From the NCBI RefSeq assembly GCF_000754095.2, contig NZ_JQSG02000006.1:181693-243163 (forward strand): a stretch of DNA of 61,471 nucleotides, given 5' to 3'. The notes under the pieces were generated by a model. That model did not search any database. It was not told the DNA's origin and saw only the letters and a list, made by a program, of their open reading frames with translations. Position numbers and translations under genes: made by a program. Below, piece by piece: positions 2,046-34,873 of the stretch (position 1 is its first letter; every line of letters starts with the position of its first letter). The DNA comes from Acidihalobacter prosperus. Its GTDB lineage: Bacteria > Pseudomonadota > Gammaproteobacteria > DSM-5130 > Acidihalobacteraceae.

Positions 2046-2354
2046 TCATATTCTCAAGGCCTCGACCACGCGTCCGTGGCACAGGTGCTCCTCGATGATC
2101 TCATCGATATCGGCCTTGTCCTCGTACGTGTACCAGACACCCTCGGGATAGATCGCCAGCACCGGGCCTTCCTCGCAACGCCCCATGCAGCCTGCGATGT
2201 TGACCCTGACCCGGCCGGCGCCGGCGATGTTCAGCGCCTTGGTGCGCTCCTTGGCATAGGCGCGAAGATCGGCGGCGTCATGGTCGCCGCAGCTGGCCTT
2301 GCCGTTGTCACGCTGATTGGTGCAGAAGAATACATGCCGCTCGTAGTAACTCAT
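2046..2354 (-). CDS. Thioredoxin-like 2Fe-2S ferredoxin
   Basis: 102 residues. Begins MSYYERHVFFCTNQRDNGKA with the first Cys, followed by SCG and then GCMGRCEEGP with two more, the cysteine pattern of (2Fe-2S) thioredoxin-like ferredoxins. VWYTYEDKADIDEIIEEHL at the C-terminus is the typical last part of the fold. Cytosolic electron carrier; partner unknown. Monocistronic: a terminator follows and the next gene upstream ends 33 bases away on the same strand. Confidence 0.85.
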   Translation of the reverse strand: MSYYERHVFFCTNQRDNGKASCGDHDAADLRAYAKERTKALNIAGAGRVRVNIAGCMGRCEEGPVLAIYPEGVWYTYEDKADIDEIIEEHLCHGRVVEALRI

Positions 2355-2387
2355 CTCGGACTCCGAACTCGGGGAAAAGGTAAGAAG

Positions 2388-3104
2388 CTAGAAATCGTAT
2401 TCCAGCGTGACCGAAGAGATTGTATCGGTCTTGCGCGTACCCGCCGGGACATTGCTATTGTGGCTGATCGTATAACTCAGGTTCGCACTCAGGGCGCCAT
2501 AGATACTCATCTTGAGCGCGCTGACGGCCTTGACGAAGGTGTTGTTCACGCCGATTTCGCTGGAAACATGCTGGGTGAACGAGGAATGGGCCGTGATATC
2601 GAACTCGTAGCCCAGACCCAGACGACCGATACCTACGCTGCGCGCACCGCCTTCCGTCAACCGACTCTGTCGCGCACCCGCACCGATCTCGACATCCAGC
2701 GTCTGCCGAGCGCTATCGTACAAACGCCGGCCAAGGCCCGCCACCTCGGACACCTGGTAGTCGTAGCCGCTGAACCGCACCGCCTGCGCATTGATCAGGC
2801 CAAACAGGTAATTATGCTTGCTGAAGGAATAACGGGTCTGATTCGACCCCTCCCAGCTCTGGGCGTTGGTGGTGCCGTCGCTCGAGGCGTACAGGCCGCT
2901 GAAGCGCAGCGTATTCTGCCAGGGCGCGCGCAGATAGTTGAGCTTGAACTTGCCGTTGGCCGTACTCGATTGCGTATTGCCCGTCGTCTGCACGCCGCCC
3001 AGCTGGATGTTGCCCGACCAGCCCGTCGGCGGCGACGCGGCAAACGCCGGGGCGCAGCACGCGCACAGGGCACACGAGGCGGTAACATAGGCAAACAAAC
3101 GCAT
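2388..3104 (-). CDS. DUF481 family outer-membrane beta-barrel protein
   Basis: 238 residues from the ATG giving MRLFAYVTASCALCACCAPAFAASPP, a signal peptide; GGAGG stands 6-9 bases upstream, whereas the longer reading frame upstream lacks a signal peptide. The mature part starts WSGNIQLGGVQTTGNTQSS, the DUF481/YdiY signature, and ends SVTLEYDF with a C-terminal Phe as usual for barrel proteins. Members are described as salt-induced outer-membrane proteins of unknown function. Divergent from the Fe-S protein gene, with only 23 bases between the two starts. Confidence 0.8.
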   Translation of the reverse strand: MRLFAYVTASCALCACCAPAFAASPPTGWSGNIQLGGVQTTGNTQSSTANGKFKLNYLRAPWQNTLRFSGLYASSDGTTNAQSWEGSNQTRYSFSKHNYLFGLINAQAVRFSGYDYQVSEVAGLGRRLYDSARQTLDVEIGAGARQSRLTEGGARSVGIGRLGLGYEFDITAHSSFTQHVSSEIGVNNTFVKAVSALKMSIYGALSANLSYTISHNSNVPAGTRKTDTISSVTLEYDF

Positions 3105-28446: not shown

Positions 28447-28695
28447 CTACGGATTCCAATGGTCGATGATGCCGACGATCGTCAGATCCGACGGAAAATC
28501 CTTGGCCCCCGCCGCGTCGCGCGCAGCCGAGGAGCCGACGCAGATCACCCAATCGCCGGGCACACATCCGATGGCATCGATCGCCACGCTCGGCGTACCG
28601 CCCTCCTTTTCCTGAACGACCAGCAGTGGCCGATGCCCCATGCTGTCGATCCGATTGGTGGACACCAGGGTCTGCACCACCCGCATGATCTTCAT
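28447..28695 (-). CDS. csoS4A: Pentameric vertex protein CsoS4A
   Basis: 82 residues from the ATG giving MKIMRVVQTLVSTNRIDSMG, which overlaps the csoSCA stop (ATGA); the longer frame upstream is inside csoSCA. BMV motifs: SVAIDAIGCVPGDWVICVGS, SDLTIVGIIDHWNP. Same family and role as CsoS4B, with which it shares the GIIDHW ending. Confidence 0.93.
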   Translation of the reverse strand: MKIMRVVQTLVSTNRIDSMGHRPLLVVQEKEGGTPSVAIDAIGCVPGDWVICVGSSAARDAAGAKDFPSDLTIVGIIDHWNP

Positions 28696-30257
28696 GAATC
28701 CATTCCTTCGCCATGTGCGACCTTGGCAACCGTGCCGCATTCGCGCACCAGGGCCAGGCGCTCCGTGCCGGTGGCATCACTCACGCAGAGCGCGAATTTG
28801 AGCATGCCTGCGGGGATGCGCTCGCGGTAGCGCGACTGGATCGCAGCCAGTACCCGCTCGCCGCGCTCGATCGCCCGCTCGCGCGCGCCAGGAACGACTG
28901 AGGCATAGCTGAAATGCACGATGACCGGCATCGGAAAGCCCCGCGACAGGTTGAGCTTTTCGAAAATATGCACGCCCACGTCGACACAGGCTGCGCCCTC
29001 CTCCAGCGTATCGAGGTGCGCGAAATAATAAAGATTGCGCATCTGAAGGTCGTCGATCGGGTCGCCGACACAGACGAAGCGCTCGCCATGGCCTAGGCTT
29101 TCATAGCGGCCTTCGTGATGCTGTATGACGAACTCGATCTGCGACAGATTGGCTTCGATCAATCGTGCGACCAGGGTTTTCATGCCTGCGGAAGCCGTAC
29201 TGCGCAATTGCCCAGCCGCCGCATCGACGGCCGCCGCGATGTGCGCACGGGCCTGCTCCGCAGGCATGGCCAGCGTTTCGCGGTAAAGACGTGCCGCGTC
29301 GACGGTCGGCGCCGACGTCGGCTCGCCTTTCGCGTCGGGCAAGTGCACCCGGATCGCGTCGAGATCGGTATCCACACCCAGCAGCAGCAGGTCCGGCCCC
29401 AAGCCTTCGCCGAAGGCTTGGGCGATCCCGCCGCGCAATTGTTTCAGGCGATCGATCGCGGCGTCTCTTGCGGCAAGCTCGTCGCTGCCGTGCGCCGCGC
29501 AGCCTTCGCTCGAGGGCTTGGAACTGCTGTAGTGGTAAACCGCCATCTTCAGATAGCGGGCATCGCGCCGGCCGCCCAGTCGTTGCGCCAGCTCGCGCTG
29601 GGTCCAGTCCGCCATGTCCAGCTCGACATCGAACAGCGCCCCGGCATAGGCCTTGAGCACCACCGCATCGCTGGTCGGCGCAATGCGCAGCACGAACGGC
29701 AGCACGCCTTGGAGCCGGCCGTCCGCGCAAGGCGTGACATCCAGCGTGTGATAGCCGCATCCGGTGATAAAGTCGTCGTCGATCGCCATGCCTTTCAGCC
29801 AGCCACGCTGTTCGTCGCGCGCCTGCGCCACGCTACGGCGGCACATCTCGAACAGACAGTGGGCGTACAGGGCGGGCATATCCAGGCCGGCGATCCACGG
29901 CTGCTCCAACATCGACGTCGGCAGTTCGCAACCCAAACGGCTACGCGCCAACTGTTGCGCCTGTGCGACGAAACCTCGCTCGCGCGGCAAGGCCGCGACC
30001 GCCTGAAGGGTATCGGCGACGCCGTCGAAGCGCGCCTGCAGCATGGCTTCGTAGCCGTAAAGTGCCTTATTCAACTCCCGGTCGACCAGGGCATGCTCGC
30101 AATGCTGGTTCTCGCCAAGATTGCAGGCCGGGTTGGCCAACGTGACGCGGGCGGCGACCCACGCATCGGCGCCGGCTACCAGCGTACCGCCGGGCAGCGT
30201 CGACGCCGGGCGGCGGATGCGCCGGGCTGGTTGACGTTGTTGGGTACGCGTACGCAT
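28692..30257 (-). CDS. csoSCA: Carboxysomal beta-class carbonic anhydrase CsoSCA
   Basis: 521 residues, usual length. Converts imported bicarbonate to CO2 inside the carboxysome. Catalytic set seen by position: Cys177, Asp179 and Arg181 in TPCADGRLQG, His242 and Cys253 in VYHYSSSKPSSEGCAAHG; the H-C spacing equals that of the Halothiobacillus enzyme. The third domain lacks a second zinc site as in the family. A basic disordered N-terminus (MRTRTQQRQPARRIRRPAS) precedes the catalytic part and resembles the segment that binds Rubisco. Four bases after csoS2. Confidence 0.96.
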   Translation of the reverse strand: MRTRTQQRQPARRIRRPASTLPGGTLVAGADAWVAARVTLANPACNLGENQHCEHALVDRELNKALYGYEAMLQARFDGVADTLQAVAALPRERGFVAQAQQLARSRLGCELPTSMLEQPWIAGLDMPALYAHCLFEMCRRSVAQARDEQRGWLKGMAIDDDFITGCGYHTLDVTPCADGRLQGVLPFVLRIAPTSDAVVLKAYAGALFDVELDMADWTQRELAQRLGGRRDARYLKMAVYHYSSSKPSSEGCAAHGSDELAARDAAIDRLKQLRGGIAQAFGEGLGPDLLLLGVDTDLDAIRVHLPDAKGEPTSAPTVDAARLYRETLAMPAEQARAHIAAAVDAAAGQLRSTASAGMKTLVARLIEANLSQIEFVIQHHEGRYESLGHGERFVCVGDPIDDLQMRNLYYFAHLDTLEEGAACVDVGVHIFEKLNLSRGFPMPVIVHFSYASVVPGARERAIERGERVLAAIQSRYRERIPAGMLKFALCVSDATGTERLALVRECGTVAKVAHGEGMDS

Positions 30258-30261
30258 GGCC

Positions 30262-32952
30262 TTACCCGCGCGCGCCTCCGGACACCGTCACGACCGCGCC
30301 ACGCTTGGTGGCACCGGCCGAACCCGTAACCGGGCTGTCCGGCACATCCGGACGCTCAAGATCGCGATAACCCTGCGCATTGCGGCCTGCGCCGCGCGGA
30401 TTGCCGCGCTGCGTCACGTTACGCACCACCGAGAAGTGACCCTCGGTGCCGGTCACGCGCTGCTGTTCGCCCCAGGCATCGCCGGTAATCTGCGCGGTTC
30501 GCGGGCTCGCCTCTCCGGTCAAACGCTGGCGGACGGCATCTTGCGCAGCCTCGGCCTGAGCCATGCGGCCGCCGCTGTCGCGGTGGCGAAACTCGGGCGT
30601 ACCCGTGATCAGGCCCTGCGCGCGATTGGCGCTGCCGGTGATGCGGTCGCTGTTGATCTGCGCGCCTGTCACACCCTGACCACGCCGCGCCTCGTAGGCC
30701 TGCCGCGCAGGCGGCACAATGCTGAAATCCCGCGGTGCGGGCGGACGCGGCGGCTCAGCATCCTGTCGGCGCGAACCGACGAAACGGCCGCTACCGGCGC
30801 CGTCGATGGCGCATGCCGCAGACAGATTGTCCAGGCCGACATAAGGCGTGCCGGTGACCGGCTCGCAAGCACCGCGTTCGTCGCCGGTCATCACGGAACC
30901 GCCGGCGCCTGGGCGATCACCGGTGATCTCGGCGGCCGATACGACACCGCGCGTCGGCACGCGGGCCAACTGCTCTTCGCTATCGCGCGGCTCGCAGAAC
31001 TGCGCGTACTGACCCTGGCCGATATAAGGCGTCCCGCTGATGGGCGCGCAACCGCCGTATTCGTCGCCGGTCACGCTGGCGCTACGGCCCACGGCCGCGC
31101 CGGTGATCGTCTCGCCCTGCCAGGTACGGTCGACCGCCACCTTGGCCACGGCCTGGTCCGGCGGGGTGCTGTCGACGCAGACGGCACGCAGGTCCTGCGC
31201 GCCGACGTAGTCGGTTCCGGTGACGAGGCTGCACCGCCCTTCCTCGTCACCCGTCATTTTTGGGTTGGAACGCACCTCCGTGCCGGACACCTGGGTACCG
31301 GCACGCGTCGCAGCCGCACCCACCTTGGTCGGACCCTCGATCGCGCAGGCATCGCCGAAGTCGCGACTGTTGAAGTACGGCGTACCGGTGATGGCGCGGC
31401 ACGAACCGGGTTCGCTACCCGTCACCTTCTTATCGCGGGCAACCGAGGTACCCGTCACCGGCTGATCTGCCGGCGTCGACATGATGCTGACCTTCCGTGG
31501 CGGCCGGGGAGGTGTGCTCTCGCAGAATCCCGCATATTGTTCAGAACTCAGGTATTCGGTGCCGCTCACCACGCGACACGCACCGGGTTCGTCGCCCGTC
31601 ACGCGCTGCGAACGCCCGACCGAGGTGCCGGTGACCTGGCTGCCGCTGGCCGTATGCGTGACCGCAACCTTGTCAGCGACCGGCTTCGGAGCCTCGGCGC
31701 GCGCATAACGCGTGCCCGTGATGTCACGAGCCGCACCCGCTTCGCCCCCGGTCACGCGGTTTTCCGAGATCACCATCGTGCCGGTCAGCGTCTGGCCTTT
31801 TTGCGTGCGCGTCATGCCGATCTTGTTCGCCGGCGGCTGCGGACGGGTCGGGCAAAAACGCTCGAAATGGTCGGCAGACAGATACTGCGTGCCGGTCACC
31901 TCGCGACAGGCGCCGTGCTCCGCGCCCGTCATCGCATCGTCGGGCGCCACCTCGGTACCCGACACGGAACGCCCGTGCAGCGTCCGGCTCAGGGTGACCT
32001 TGGCGGGATTCGCCTCCGGACGCGTCCCGCAGAACGCGTCGAACTGCTCCAGACCGATATATTCGGTCCCGGTGACGGAGCGGCAGGAACCCGGCTCGTT
32101 GCCGGTGACCTGTCGCGTACGCTCCACCATCGTGCCGGTGACTTCATGTCCCGACAGCGTGTGCCCCTGTTCGACCTTCGGCGGCGCCGTCAGGGCGCGC
32201 GCCGAGCGGCGTGCGGCAGGCTTGCGGCTTTCGCCGGACGTGTGACCGCCCGCTTCGCCGCGGCCGGTGAGCGCCCTCACCTTGCGATGCTGCATGGCCA
32301 CCTGACGCCCGGTCACGCCCTTGGCGATGGCGATGCGCCAGTCCTTCTCGGGCAGATACTTGGCGATCTTGGTCGCCTGCGCCGCGCGCTTGAGTCCAGC
32401 CTTGCCTTCCTGACCCAGGGCCTTGCGGCGAGCCAGGGCAATATCGCGGCCGCTGCCATGCACGTGGTTCTTCACCAGTCGCGCAGCGATTTCCTTGGGC
32501 GTGAGCGACACTGCCGTGTTCGCCATGGCGGCGCGGCGATCCGCCGAAGGGCCGTTATCGACGGCCGGCGCCTCGCCGCATGCACCCTTGCCCTTGCAGC
32601 CGCAGCCGCAGTCTTCGGCGCGATTCTTCGCGGCGGCGGACTCGCTCCGGACCGCACGCACAGGCCTCGCACCCGACTGCGCCTTCGGCAGCGCAGCCTT
32701 GCCGTTGCGCGCCATTGCTTCGCGACGGCTCCGGGCAAGCATGCGCCCGGTCGGCTCGGCGGCGGCAACCGCGGAGGCGTTGCGCGTCGCCGGCGACTGT
32801 CCGCCGGACACGCTCGCCGCGCGAGCGGCGACCTGGCGCGCAGGCTTGACCGCACGCTTGCCCTGGGAAGCCATCGCCTTGCGACGCTGGCGTGCCAGTT
32901 CGCGGCCCGAGAGCCGCACATCGGCATGAGTTTCAGGCTGAATATGCGTCAT
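30262..32952 (-). CDS. csoS2: Carboxysome assembly scaffold CsoS2 (two isoforms predicted)
   Basis: 896 residues, intrinsically disordered. N-terminal domain with four Rubisco-binding repeats (SGRELARQRRKAMASQGK, TGRMLARSRREAMARNGK, SGRDIALARRKALGQEGK, TGRQVAMQHRKVRALTG). Middle region with about seven M repeats (for example HTLSGHEVTGTMVE, VTGNEPGSCRSVTGTEYIG) with paired Cys and VTG/ITG motifs that bind the shell. C-terminal domain anchored in the shell, ending VVTVSGGARG. A -1 frameshift signal at codons 564-565 predicts a short form of 568 residues. Follows cbbS after 91 bases. Confidence 0.96.
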   Translation of the reverse strand: MTHIQPETHADVRLSGRELARQRRKAMASQGKRAVKPARQVAARAASVSGGQSPATRNASAVAAAEPTGRMLARSRREAMARNGKAALPKAQSGARPVRAVRSESAAAKNRAEDCGCGCKGKGACGEAPAVDNGPSADRRAAMANTAVSLTPKEIAARLVKNHVHGSGRDIALARRKALGQEGKAGLKRAAQATKIAKYLPEKDWRIAIAKGVTGRQVAMQHRKVRALTGRGEAGGHTSGESRKPAARRSARALTAPPKVEQGHTLSGHEVTGTMVERTRQVTGNEPGSCRSVTGTEYIGLEQFDAFCGTRPEANPAKVTLSRTLHGRSVSGTEVAPDDAMTGAEHGACREVTGTQYLSADHFERFCPTRPQPPANKIGMTRTQKGQTLTGTMVISENRVTGGEAGAARDITGTRYARAEAPKPVADKVAVTHTASGSQVTGTSVGRSQRVTGDEPGACRVVSGTEYLSSEQYAGFCESTPPRPPRKVSIMSTPADQPVTGTSVARDKKVTGSEPGSCRAITGTPYFNSRDFGDACAIEGPTKVGAAATRAGTQVSGTEVRSNPKMTGDEEGRCSLVTGTDYVGAQDLRAVCVDSTPPDQAVAKVAVDRTWQGETITGAAVGRSASVTGDEYGGCAPISGTPYIGQGQYAQFCEPRDSEEQLARVPTRGVVSAAEITGDRPGAGGSVMTGDERGACEPVTGTPYVGLDNLSAACAIDGAGSGRFVGSRRQDAEPPRPPAPRDFSIVPPARQAYEARRGQGVTGAQINSDRITGSANRAQGLITGTPEFRHRDSGGRMAQAEAAQDAVRQRLTGEASPRTAQITGDAWGEQQRVTGTEGHFSVVRNVTQRGNPRGAGRNAQGYRDLERPDVPDSPVTGSAGATKRGAVVTVSGGARG
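31219..31264 (-). promoter_or_regulatory. Programmed -1 ribosomal frameshift signal in csoS2
   Basis: Slippery heptamer C CCA AAA in the reading frame (complement of 31258-31264; codons Pro564-Lys565), a 6-base spacer, and a perfect 10-base-pair stem GGTGACGAGG/CCTCGTCACC (31242-31251 with 31219-31228) with a 13-base loop. After a -1 slip the ribosome reads Asn-Asp-Gly and a TGA (31247-31249), giving a 568-residue CsoS2A. Same kind of signal is known for Halothiobacillus csoS2. Confidence 0.85.
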
Positions 32953-33043: not shown

Positions 33044-33370
33044 CTATCCGCGATGGACCACGAAGGCCAGACCCTGGCTCTGGGTGTAGTTGTCATACGC
33101 CACGAAGCGCACCACATAGCTCGGGAAGGCGCGGTGGCACGCTTCGATCTCGCTCAGCACGACATCGACCGAGTCCTCGCCGAACATCGGCAGACCCCAC
33201 ATGTGCCAATAGTGGTCGGCCTGATCGTCCGGATGCGCATACTCGACCGCCGGGTTCCAGCCCTGGGAAATGGCGTAGGCGATCTGATTTCGCACCTGCT
33301 CGGGCGTAAACGCCGGCAGGTAGGAGAACGTCTCGTAACGCTTGCTCGAAATGTACGGGTTCACAGCCAT
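33044..33370 (-). CDS. cbbS: Rubisco small subunit, form IA
   Basis: 108 residues. Family motifs: [60 protein letters not shown], and [20 protein letters not shown]. Caps the L8S8 enzyme. AGGAG precedes the ATG. Separated from cbbL by 81 bases that hold two overlapping stem-loops. Confidence 0.98.
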
Positions 33371-33426: not shown

Positions 33427-33463
33427 CCGCATGCGTGATGCGGCCACAAGGTTACTTGTGGCC
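33427..33463 (-). other. Stem-loops at the cbbL stop codon and cbbL-cbbS spacer
   Basis: The mRNA can form GGCCACAAG/CTTGTGGCC (33455-33463 with 33442-33450), a perfect 9-pair stem whose 4-base loop carries the cbbL TAA stop. A second perfect stem CCGCAT/ATGCGG (33427-33432 and 33438-33443) follows and shares two bases with it, so the two exclude each other at the base. No U run, so it is not a classic terminator. Probably an mRNA processing or stability element setting cbbL:cbbS ratio. Confidence 0.6.
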
Positions 33464-34873
33464 CACATCCAGCTTGTCGACGGTATCGAACTCAAATTTG
33501 ATTTCCTTCCAAGTTTCCATGGCAACCTTGAGTTCGGGGGAGTGCTGAGCGGCTGCGGTCATGATTTCCTTGCTTTCGCGCTCAAGCTCGCGACCCTGAT
33601 TGCGCGCCTCGACGCAGGCCTCGACCGCCACGCGGTTGGCATGCGCACCCGCGGCGTTGCCCCAGGGGTGACCCAGCGTGCCGCCGCCGAACTGCAGCAC
33701 GGAATCGTCGCCGAAGATGCTGACCAGCGCCGGCATGTGCCACACATGGATACCGCCGGAAGCCACGGCGAAGGCACCGGGCATGGAACCCCAGTCCTGA
33801 TCGAAGAAGATGCCGCGCGAGCGGTCTTCCGGCACGAAGGATTCGCGCAGCAGGTCGATCCAGCCCAGCGTCGCGGCGCGGTCGCCCTCAAGCTTGCCGA
33901 CCACGGTGCCGGTGTGCAGGTGGTCGCCACCGGACAGGCGCAGGATCTTGGTCAGTACACGGAAGTGGATGCCGTGGTGCGGATTGCGGTCGAGCACCGC
34001 GTGCATCGCGCGGTGGATGTGCAGCAGCACGCCGTTGTCGCGGCACCAGTTGGCCAGACCCGTATTGGCGCAGAAACCGCCGGTGATGTAGTCATGCATG
34101 ATGATCGGGGCGCCGATTTCCTTGGCGAACTCCGCACGCTTGTACATCTCCTCGGGGGTCGGGGCGGTGACGTTCAGGTAGTGACCCTTGCGCTCGCCGG
34201 TTTCCTGCTCGGCCTTGAGGATGGCTTCCATGACGAACTCGAAACGGTCGCGCCAGCGCATGAACGGCTGCGAGTTGACGTTCTCATCGTCCTTGGTGAA
34301 GTCCAGACCGCCGCGCAGGGCTTCGTAGACCGCGCGGCCGTAGTTCTTGGCCGACAGGCCGAGCTTGGGCTTGATGGTGCAGCCGAGCATCGGGCGGCCG
34401 TACTTGTTGAGCTTGTCGCGCTCGACCTGGATGCCGCTCGGCGGGCCGCCGCAGGTCTTGACGTAGGCGATCGGGAAGCGCACGTCCTCGAGGCGCAGCG
34501 CGCGGATGGCCTTGAAGCCGAACACGTTGCCGACCAGCGAGGTGAACACGTTGACCACCGATCCCTCTTCGAACAGGTCGATCGGGTAGGCAATGAAAGC
34601 GTAGAAGCAAGTGTCGTCGCCCGGCACGTCCTCGATGCGGTAGGCGCGACCCTTGTAGTAATCCATGTCGGTCAGCAGGTCGGTCCACACCGTGGTCCAG
34701 GTACCGGTCGAAGACTCGGCGGCCACCGCAGCGGCCGCTTCCTCGCGGTCGATGCCGGCCTGGGGCGTGATCTTGAAGCACGCCAGAAGGTCGGTATCCA
34801 GCGGCACGTACTCCGGCTGCCAGTAAGTCTGCCGATAGTCTTTAACACCGGCACTGTATTTTTTTTCGGCCAT
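33452..34873 (-). CDS. cbbL: Rubisco large subunit, form IA
   Basis: 473 residues. Carboxylates RuBP inside the carboxysome. Motifs: [40 protein letters not shown] with the carbamylated Lys and metal-binding Asp-Glu, [33 protein letters not shown] (loop 6). Carboxysomal form IA is shown by linkage to cbbS-csoS2-csoSCA. AGGAG stands before the ATG. First gene of the operon and divergent from cbbR. Confidence 0.99.

Follow-up and report, generated by a model that had tools for sequence, protein, structure and literature searches.

A predicted −1 programmed frameshift signal with an upstream Shine-Dalgarno-like element in csoS2 of Acidihalobacter prosperus, and a second candidate cassette in related genes

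The csoS2 locus and its predicted frameshift signal

The window analysed here, the whole 61,471-nucleotide (nt) stretch of Acidihalobacter prosperus contig NZ_JQSG02000006.1 (positions 181,693 to 243,163), contains csoS2, the gene of an alpha-carboxysome scaffold protein. With a probability of about 0.9, judged from sequence, M repeat 6 of this gene carries a working −1 programmed frameshift signal that is orthologous to the signal known from Halothiobacillus neapolitanus and that would possess a third element resembling that of Escherichia coli dnaX. The gene belongs to the CsoS2 family by both its Pfam CsoS2_M match and its cso operon context. The features of the signal, the gene and its neighbours are as follows (bp, base pairs; aa, amino acids; ORF, open reading frame).

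31258..31264, minus strand: slippery heptamer C_CCA_AAA (zero-frame codons CCA AAA), the sole in-frame XXXYYYZ of the gene
31252..31257, minus strand: 6-nt spacer ATGACG, read from the sequence, spacing kept among relatives
31219..31251, minus strand: predicted 3' stimulatory hairpin, 10-bp stem GGTGACGAGG/CCTCGTCACC with a 13-nt loop, from sequence and third-position constraint
31247..31249, minus strand: −1 frame stop TGA after Asn-Asp-Gly (−1 codons AAT GAC GGG TGA)
31250..32952, minus strand: predicted coding region of CsoS2A, the 568-aa short form, with the geometry of the 570-aa H. neapolitanus CsoS2A
31275..31279, minus strand: Shine-Dalgarno-like GGAGG (codons ACG GAG GTG), 10 nt 5' of the heptamer, role predicted
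30262..32952, minus strand: csoS2, full-length CsoS2B of 896 aa (PF12288, E 4.3e-165; ORF and translation)
28692..30257, minus strand: csoSCA, carbonic anhydrase gene following csoS2 in the cso operon (Pfam CsoSCA domains)
33044-33370, minus strand: cbbS, Rubisco gene upstream of csoS2 in the operon (Pfam)
33452-34873, minus strand: cbbL, Rubisco gene upstream of csoS2 in the operon (Pfam)

The operon is an ordinary one, in which csoS2 is placed between csoSCA and cbbS/cbbL according to Pfam. A search of the 896-aa ORF for in-frame XXXYYYZ heptamers of any letters gave a single hit, C_CCA_AAA at 31264-31258, and the stem arms (31251-31242 and 31228-31219) form 10 unbroken pairs around a loop at 31229-31241. 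The predicted short product has 565 + 3 = 568 residues, compared with 896 at full length. The original prediction had already described the in-frame heptamer, the 6-base spacer, the perfect 10-pair stem and a −1 stop four codons on (Asn-Asp-Gly-stop) giving a 568-residue form, and every one of these figures was recovered on re-derivation. Its three named parts are thus present, while a further part, the upstream Shine-Dalgarno (SD)-like GGAGG, had been overlooked. It had also held that the short form would lose the last M repeat together with the C-terminal domain; the domain and repeat 7 would indeed be lost, but the ribosome would slip within repeat 6, and the second half of this repeat would go as well.

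Selection on the repeat-6 site

With the protein fixed and codons drawn from the gene's own usage, CCCAAA[A/G] was present in 3.9% of 20,000 synonymous versions of the window gene, an equally stable stem in 2.4%, and heptamer and stem together in 0.11%, while the identical stem test at four other repeats of the gene gave P values of 0.29-0.58. Comparison among relatives offers far stronger evidence for the signal than this single-gene chance test. For this comparison, csoS2 genes were gathered with Pfam from the window's own genome and its order (4/5 genomes), from a class sample (72/369), from a phylum sample (2/398) and from the orders or family of positive genomes; a related-locus search added three bacterial loci and no viral one. 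This sampling favours families having positives, and some ORFs are partial. The 264 ORFs obtained were reduced to 207 by removal of identical cores, and repeat-6 genes were selected by CCCAAA[A/G] before x[TSH]G[DN] with a following [VIT][TS]G, a filter at which L025 was dropped. The heptamer CCCAAA[A/G] stands at the repeat-6 place in 89 of the 207 non-redundant ORFs; one of these 89 was left out of the codon contrast and the scan, and three short ORFs were left out of the tree described below.

In all 89 genes, a −1 frame TGA follows after exactly three codons, GGTGA begins 6 nt 3' of the heptamer, and at least 7 unbroken stem pairs start from the 6-nt spacer. Seven pairs followed by a mismatch are found in 81/89, and the 10-pair stem is restricted to six genes, namely the window gene, its three kin, L058 and L139. 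Among the codons not used for selecting genes, third positions at repeat 6 differ sharply from those in other repeats of the same genes: GGT occurs in 88/88 vs 133/441, GTC in 88/88 vs 93/281, GAC in 85/88 vs 137/221 and ACC in 87/88 vs 294/441. CCCAAAR is used at 4/227 other Pro-Lys pairs of these genes. Moreover, the stem beats synonymous versions (P<=0.05) in 61/73 distinct genes vs 35/315 other repeats, and a gene-wide synonymous-constraint scan of 88 genes, in which no position was preset, placed its top peak at PKMTGDEEGRCSLVT (excess 0.77; next 0.28), coinciding with PKMTGDE..VT of repeat 6. Past the 3' end of the hairpin, the constraint fades within roughly a codon. The sequence, position, conservation and synonymous constraint of the repeat-6 signal are direct observations, and from these comparisons selection on it is clear.

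Two details of the same region stand apart from the stem itself. The loop codon before TGC is GGG in 70/72 cases against a background of 0.13, which makes it as constrained as the stem and is not explained by a plain stem; the loop of the window (31229-31241) reads CGG TGC instead of GGG TGC. At codon 15 of repeat 6 (Gly after VT), GGC, the commonest Gly codon, is avoided among 81 distinct genes, which mostly use GGT or GGA, and pairing with codon 3 does not explain this avoidance.

Comparison with known systems

The phmmer alignment puts P564-K565/M566 of the window on P566-K567/M568 of PDB 9ly8 (H. neapolitanus CsoS2B, 869 aa). In H. neapolitanus, purified carboxysomes contain both isoforms, and a loss on mutation of the heptamer or the stem is reported. 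The −1 programmed frameshifting of its csoS2 is reportedly the work of Chaijarasphong et al. 2016, J Mol Biol 428:153. Later papers describe H. neapolitanus CsoS2A as a 570-aa protein whose last three residues come from the −1 frame at about 50% efficiency, and predict frameshifting in 79/162 species having csoS2 (PMC5009743); the site has been assigned to repeat 6 (PMC12918739, PMC11365436, PMC11481516). The long form is reported to be essential and the short form non-essential (PMC11365436), while larger shells and an effect on Rubisco packing were reported when both A and B forms are made (PMC11481516).

The window signal matches this known kind in gene, residue (PK/M of repeat 6), 3' hairpin, three −1 codons and product length (568 vs 570 aa), and the characters of the H. 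neapolitanus type, a heptamer at Pro-Lys, a constrained hairpin and a stop that leaves a three-residue tail, are all present. It is an orthologue of the H. neapolitanus repeat-6 signal. The original prediction had appealed to csoS2 frameshifting in Halothiobacillus and had proposed a −1 frameshift here; the site proves to be the residue-for-residue counterpart of the H. neapolitanus one, and this exact homology, together with synonymous constraint across 89 genes, supports the proposal. The heptamer differs, being CCCAAAA in the window and CCCAAAG in 12 Halothiobacillus-like genes, and the window has an unbroken 10-bp stem and a GGAGG, which H. neapolitanus apparently is without. The lack of a 5' SD stimulator, a trait of the studied H. 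neapolitanus member, therefore does not extend to the window, which is a variant in this respect.

E. coli dnaX resembles the window in having an SD element at a 10-nt gap (AGGGAG in dnaX; GGAGG in the window), a heptamer, a 3' hairpin and an early −1 stop that gives a shorter protein. Unlike the window, it uses A_AAA_AAG rather than C_CCA_AAA, and its gene and hairpin are unrelated and not homologous. Of the characters of a dnaX-like tripartite signal, an SD-like element within 9-14 nt is present (role predicted), while the A_AAA_AAG heptamer is absent. In beta-carboxysomes, the short CcmM is made by internal initiation, not frameshifting. CcmM, a protein unrelated to CsoS2, is alike in that two scaffold lengths come from one gene (PMC12312397).

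The upstream Shine-Dalgarno-like element

The gap between GGAGG and the heptamer in the window is 10 nt, the same as in E. coli dnaX measured likewise, and according to a review, −1 stimulatory SD elements stand 9-14 nt upstream, while H. neapolitanus csoS2 appears to have no such stimulator. A tree of 86 genes was built by a quick search without the repeat-6 residues, with L058 flagged as a long branch. On it, 29 genes have an SD core of at least 5 nt, 10 have one of 4 nt, 14 have a G-run and 33 have none of these, and presence versus absence requires at least 4 changes. One branch sets apart 32 genes, the window's among them, and the element is present in 31/32 of these. It is rebuilt with other codons in a separate group of 6 (ACA GGA GTN at 10 nt), and a third group of 2 genes bears GGGAGG about 12 nt upstream. 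SD-like elements at repeat 6 occur in separate csoS2 clades with different codons. Family f158, the 12 Halothiobacillus-like genes of the tree, lacks the element throughout; the name of this family rests on L096, which has the repeat-6 peptide of 9ly8 and no SD. A trade-off between AAA/AAG in the heptamer and SD presence was also considered and dropped, showing no clean pattern. In the whole genome, GGAGG-N8-12-CCCAAAR occurs 3 times and a reversed control pattern is equally frequent, so the string alone is unremarkable.

Proposed mechanism and alternative explanations

A ribosome reaching CCA AAA, with the Pro and Lys transfer RNAs in its P and A sites, would, from the geometry of the site, be stalled by the hairpin 6 nt downstream, while pairing of 16S ribosomal RNA with GGAGG 10 nt upstream may, as in dnaX, help the slip. 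Both transfer RNAs could then shift back from CCA AAA to CCC AAA, which the sequence allows, three residues (Asn-Asp-Gly) would be added, and TGA would end the chain. The gene would in this way yield CsoS2B (896 aa) and CsoS2A (568 aa), the latter consisting of the Rubisco-binding N-domain and about five and a half M repeats with no C-domain. The short form would keep most of the shell-facet repeats and go without the C-domain that anchors near vertices. Slipping in A. prosperus itself, and a role of its short form in linking or packing Rubisco and enlarging the shell, are expected from H. neapolitanus, whereas the contribution of the upstream element is suggested by dnaX.

Several observations speak against a working three-part signal. 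For the window gene alone, the stem test gives P 0.024, the csoS2 sequences are related, so that the counts above are counts and not independent events, and the stem columns vary so little that covariation lends the stem hardly any support, with an RNAalifold covariation term of about 0.2. An extension of the stem by one pair, between codon 3 and codon 15, was rejected, the two codons being associated as A with A and T with T, contrary to pairing. In a review passage, C_CCA_AAG is given as highly shift-prone in E. coli, with no mention there of C_CCA_AAA, and expression of H. neapolitanus csoS2 from a neutral site in the genome is reported to have yielded the long form with no detected short form (PMC11365436). 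As to the third part, the SD-like match in the window is no closer than its amino acids would often give (P 0.16), and tested gene by gene it falls below 0.05 in 4/80 distinct genes and below 0.2 in 36/80.

These points bear differently on the alternatives. Heptamer and hairpin might be by-products of the repeated motif (PK-x-TGDE..C..VTG) and codon bias, with no frameshift at all, given that the codons for Gly-Asp ... Val-Thr permit GGTGAC/GTCACC in every repeat and that other repeats of the window gene fold too (-11.5 to -16.1 kcal/mol); yet the third positions are fixed at repeat 6 only, the stem outperforms its synonymous versions there and seldom elsewhere, and the blind scan peaks at the same place, which leaves this explanation very improbable and close to refuted already. 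Transcriptional slippage, which occurs in other bacterial genes, or proteolysis might be the main source of the A and B forms, and five A do stand in a row at the site. That is a short run for slippage by RNA polymerase, and neither process would need a conserved hairpin, spacer and −1 stop, all three of which are conserved, so that we give this origin hardly any credence.

Two further readings concern GGAGG. It might be forced by the Thr-Glu-Val peptide and be no stimulator, as the P values above and the retention of the cassette without GGAGG in Thiomonas (L009) and in all 12 Halothiobacillus-like tree genes would suggest. Against this, Thr-Glu-Val/Ala is written ACGGAGG in 21/31 cases at repeat 6 vs 6/72 in other repeats of the same genes, Thr-Gly-Val/Met/Ile variants at repeat 6 use GGG or GGA for Gly in 28/28, and two other clades use different codons; a merely peptide-forced GGAGG is unlikely, though it deserves serious consideration. 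Alternatively, GGAGG could serve as the ribosome-binding site of an internal start at ATG 31257-31255 giving a C-terminal fragment, since an in-frame ATG follows the heptamer in the window and Met is found there in 14/39 SD-core genes. The other 25/39, however, have Val, Leu, Ser or Ala, and the 17 nt between GGAGG and ATG is too long for initiation, making an internal start highly improbable. The preferred interpretation, a repeat-6 frameshift signal assisted by an upstream element, presents the window as a natural tripartite variant in which the upstream element can be tested by synonymous change.

A second candidate cassette at repeat 4 in relatives

A second, non-homologous cassette was found in related genes at the start of repeat 4, where A_AAA_AAG is followed by a 6-nt spacer (mostly GTGGAA) and then a 12-bp helix closing a branched structure, as in L203 at 2341-2494 (+). 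Such genes, which are csoS2 by Pfam in the three tested, mostly encode about 600-700 aa, lack the repeat-6 site and have CCA AAA AAG in common. In 27/207 ORFs, the repeat-4 heptamer is accompanied by at least 10/12 helix pairs, and the −1 frame runs for exactly 26 codons before its stop; the repeat-6 cassette occurs in 0/27 of these, and no ORF of the 207 has both. As a control, 26 other A_AAA_AAR sites reach at most 8 helix pairs, and the comparison gene L231/L276 with CCG AAA AAR has no helix, no stop and no constraint. Across 11 representatives, codons 0-19 from the site are identical in 797/846 same-residue comparisons vs 14,238/24,431 in the rest of the gene, and the synonymous-constraint scan of the repeat-4 genes peaks at this site too (0.72, next 0.41). 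SD-like matches lie 7-10 nt upstream of the heptamer in 32/33 (counted without a control). The PKKV of the f195 genes had been considered as an N/M junction and was rejected, translation placing it at the start of repeat 4.

A covariance model of 24 of the 27 repeat-4 genes (alignment A1), searched against 399 genomes of the order, gave 12 matches, comprising 3 known carriers, 6 new carriers from four other families (L270-L275) and 3 weak matches in genomes whose csoS2 is without the cassette (G570, G910, G990). All six new carriers have A_AAA_AA[A/G] and the 26-codon −1 tail, and the stop of the repeat-4 cassette is TGA. In alignment A3 (14 of those 24 and the 6 new), 92.6% of cells pair, compared with 32-38% for slid structures, although these figures are favoured by the structure having been drawn from the same 20 sequences. 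Double-sided changes affect 5 pairs (matched by 8/500 shuffles) and 14 such cells (0/500).

The −1 reading frame at repeat 4 also behaves like a coding one. Between L273-L275 and ten others, identity is 271/780 in frame 0 and 411/780 in frame −1, the repeat-4 protein having drifted more than the −1 tail. Over 30 related pairs, differences by codon position are 0.353, 0.390 and 0.271 in the tail block vs 0.345, 0.289 and 0.597 elsewhere, so the free position has shifted to the third base of the −1 frame. The 26-residue tail evolves as coding sequence under protein-level selection, which would make it an alternative functional C-terminus and not a mere truncation. In L203, this would give a second, independent short form of 330 aa (304 + 26), with the N-domain and three M repeats. 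Very likely, alpha-carboxysome bacteria have gained a short form of the scaffold on two or more occasions, through unrelated −1 cassettes, one at repeat 6, often with an added SD element, and one at repeat 4, the tail of the latter acting as an alternative functional C-terminus.

Literature on csoS2 frameshifting, as far as available and without the species table of the 2016 primary study, mentions neither an SD element in any csoS2 nor a repeat-4 site. A 2025 review called it unclear why two CsoS2 forms are needed in some alpha-carboxysomes and a single form in others (PMC12312397). If the repeat-4 cassette works, a scaffold without the shell-anchoring end would have been selected more than once, genes without the repeat-6 site may move into the two-isoform group, and the tail would offer a precise peptide for mass spectrometry.

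Other sites scanned

Halothiobacillus-like genes (L094-L099, L103-L106, L052-L054) have an in-frame A_AAA_AA[A/G] at the repeat-1 PKKV, and their −1 frame meets a stop 1 or 10 codons later; this candidate second site was rejected, there being no synonymous constraint around it. Neither cassette is present in 91/207 ORFs, 74 of which were scanned for further ones. No comparable constraint peak appeared in a second cluster of 54 genes, where the excess reached 0.29 at most, or 0.33 among its 21 shorter genes. A set of 22 that combined 20 genes having neither cassette with L200 and L221, which have the repeat-4 site, gave a peak of 0.62 from only 64 pairs, located in a gappy N-terminal stretch from L041 position 39 onward. 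In three assemblies (G345, G944, G968), two csoS2 genes are present, each on a different contig.

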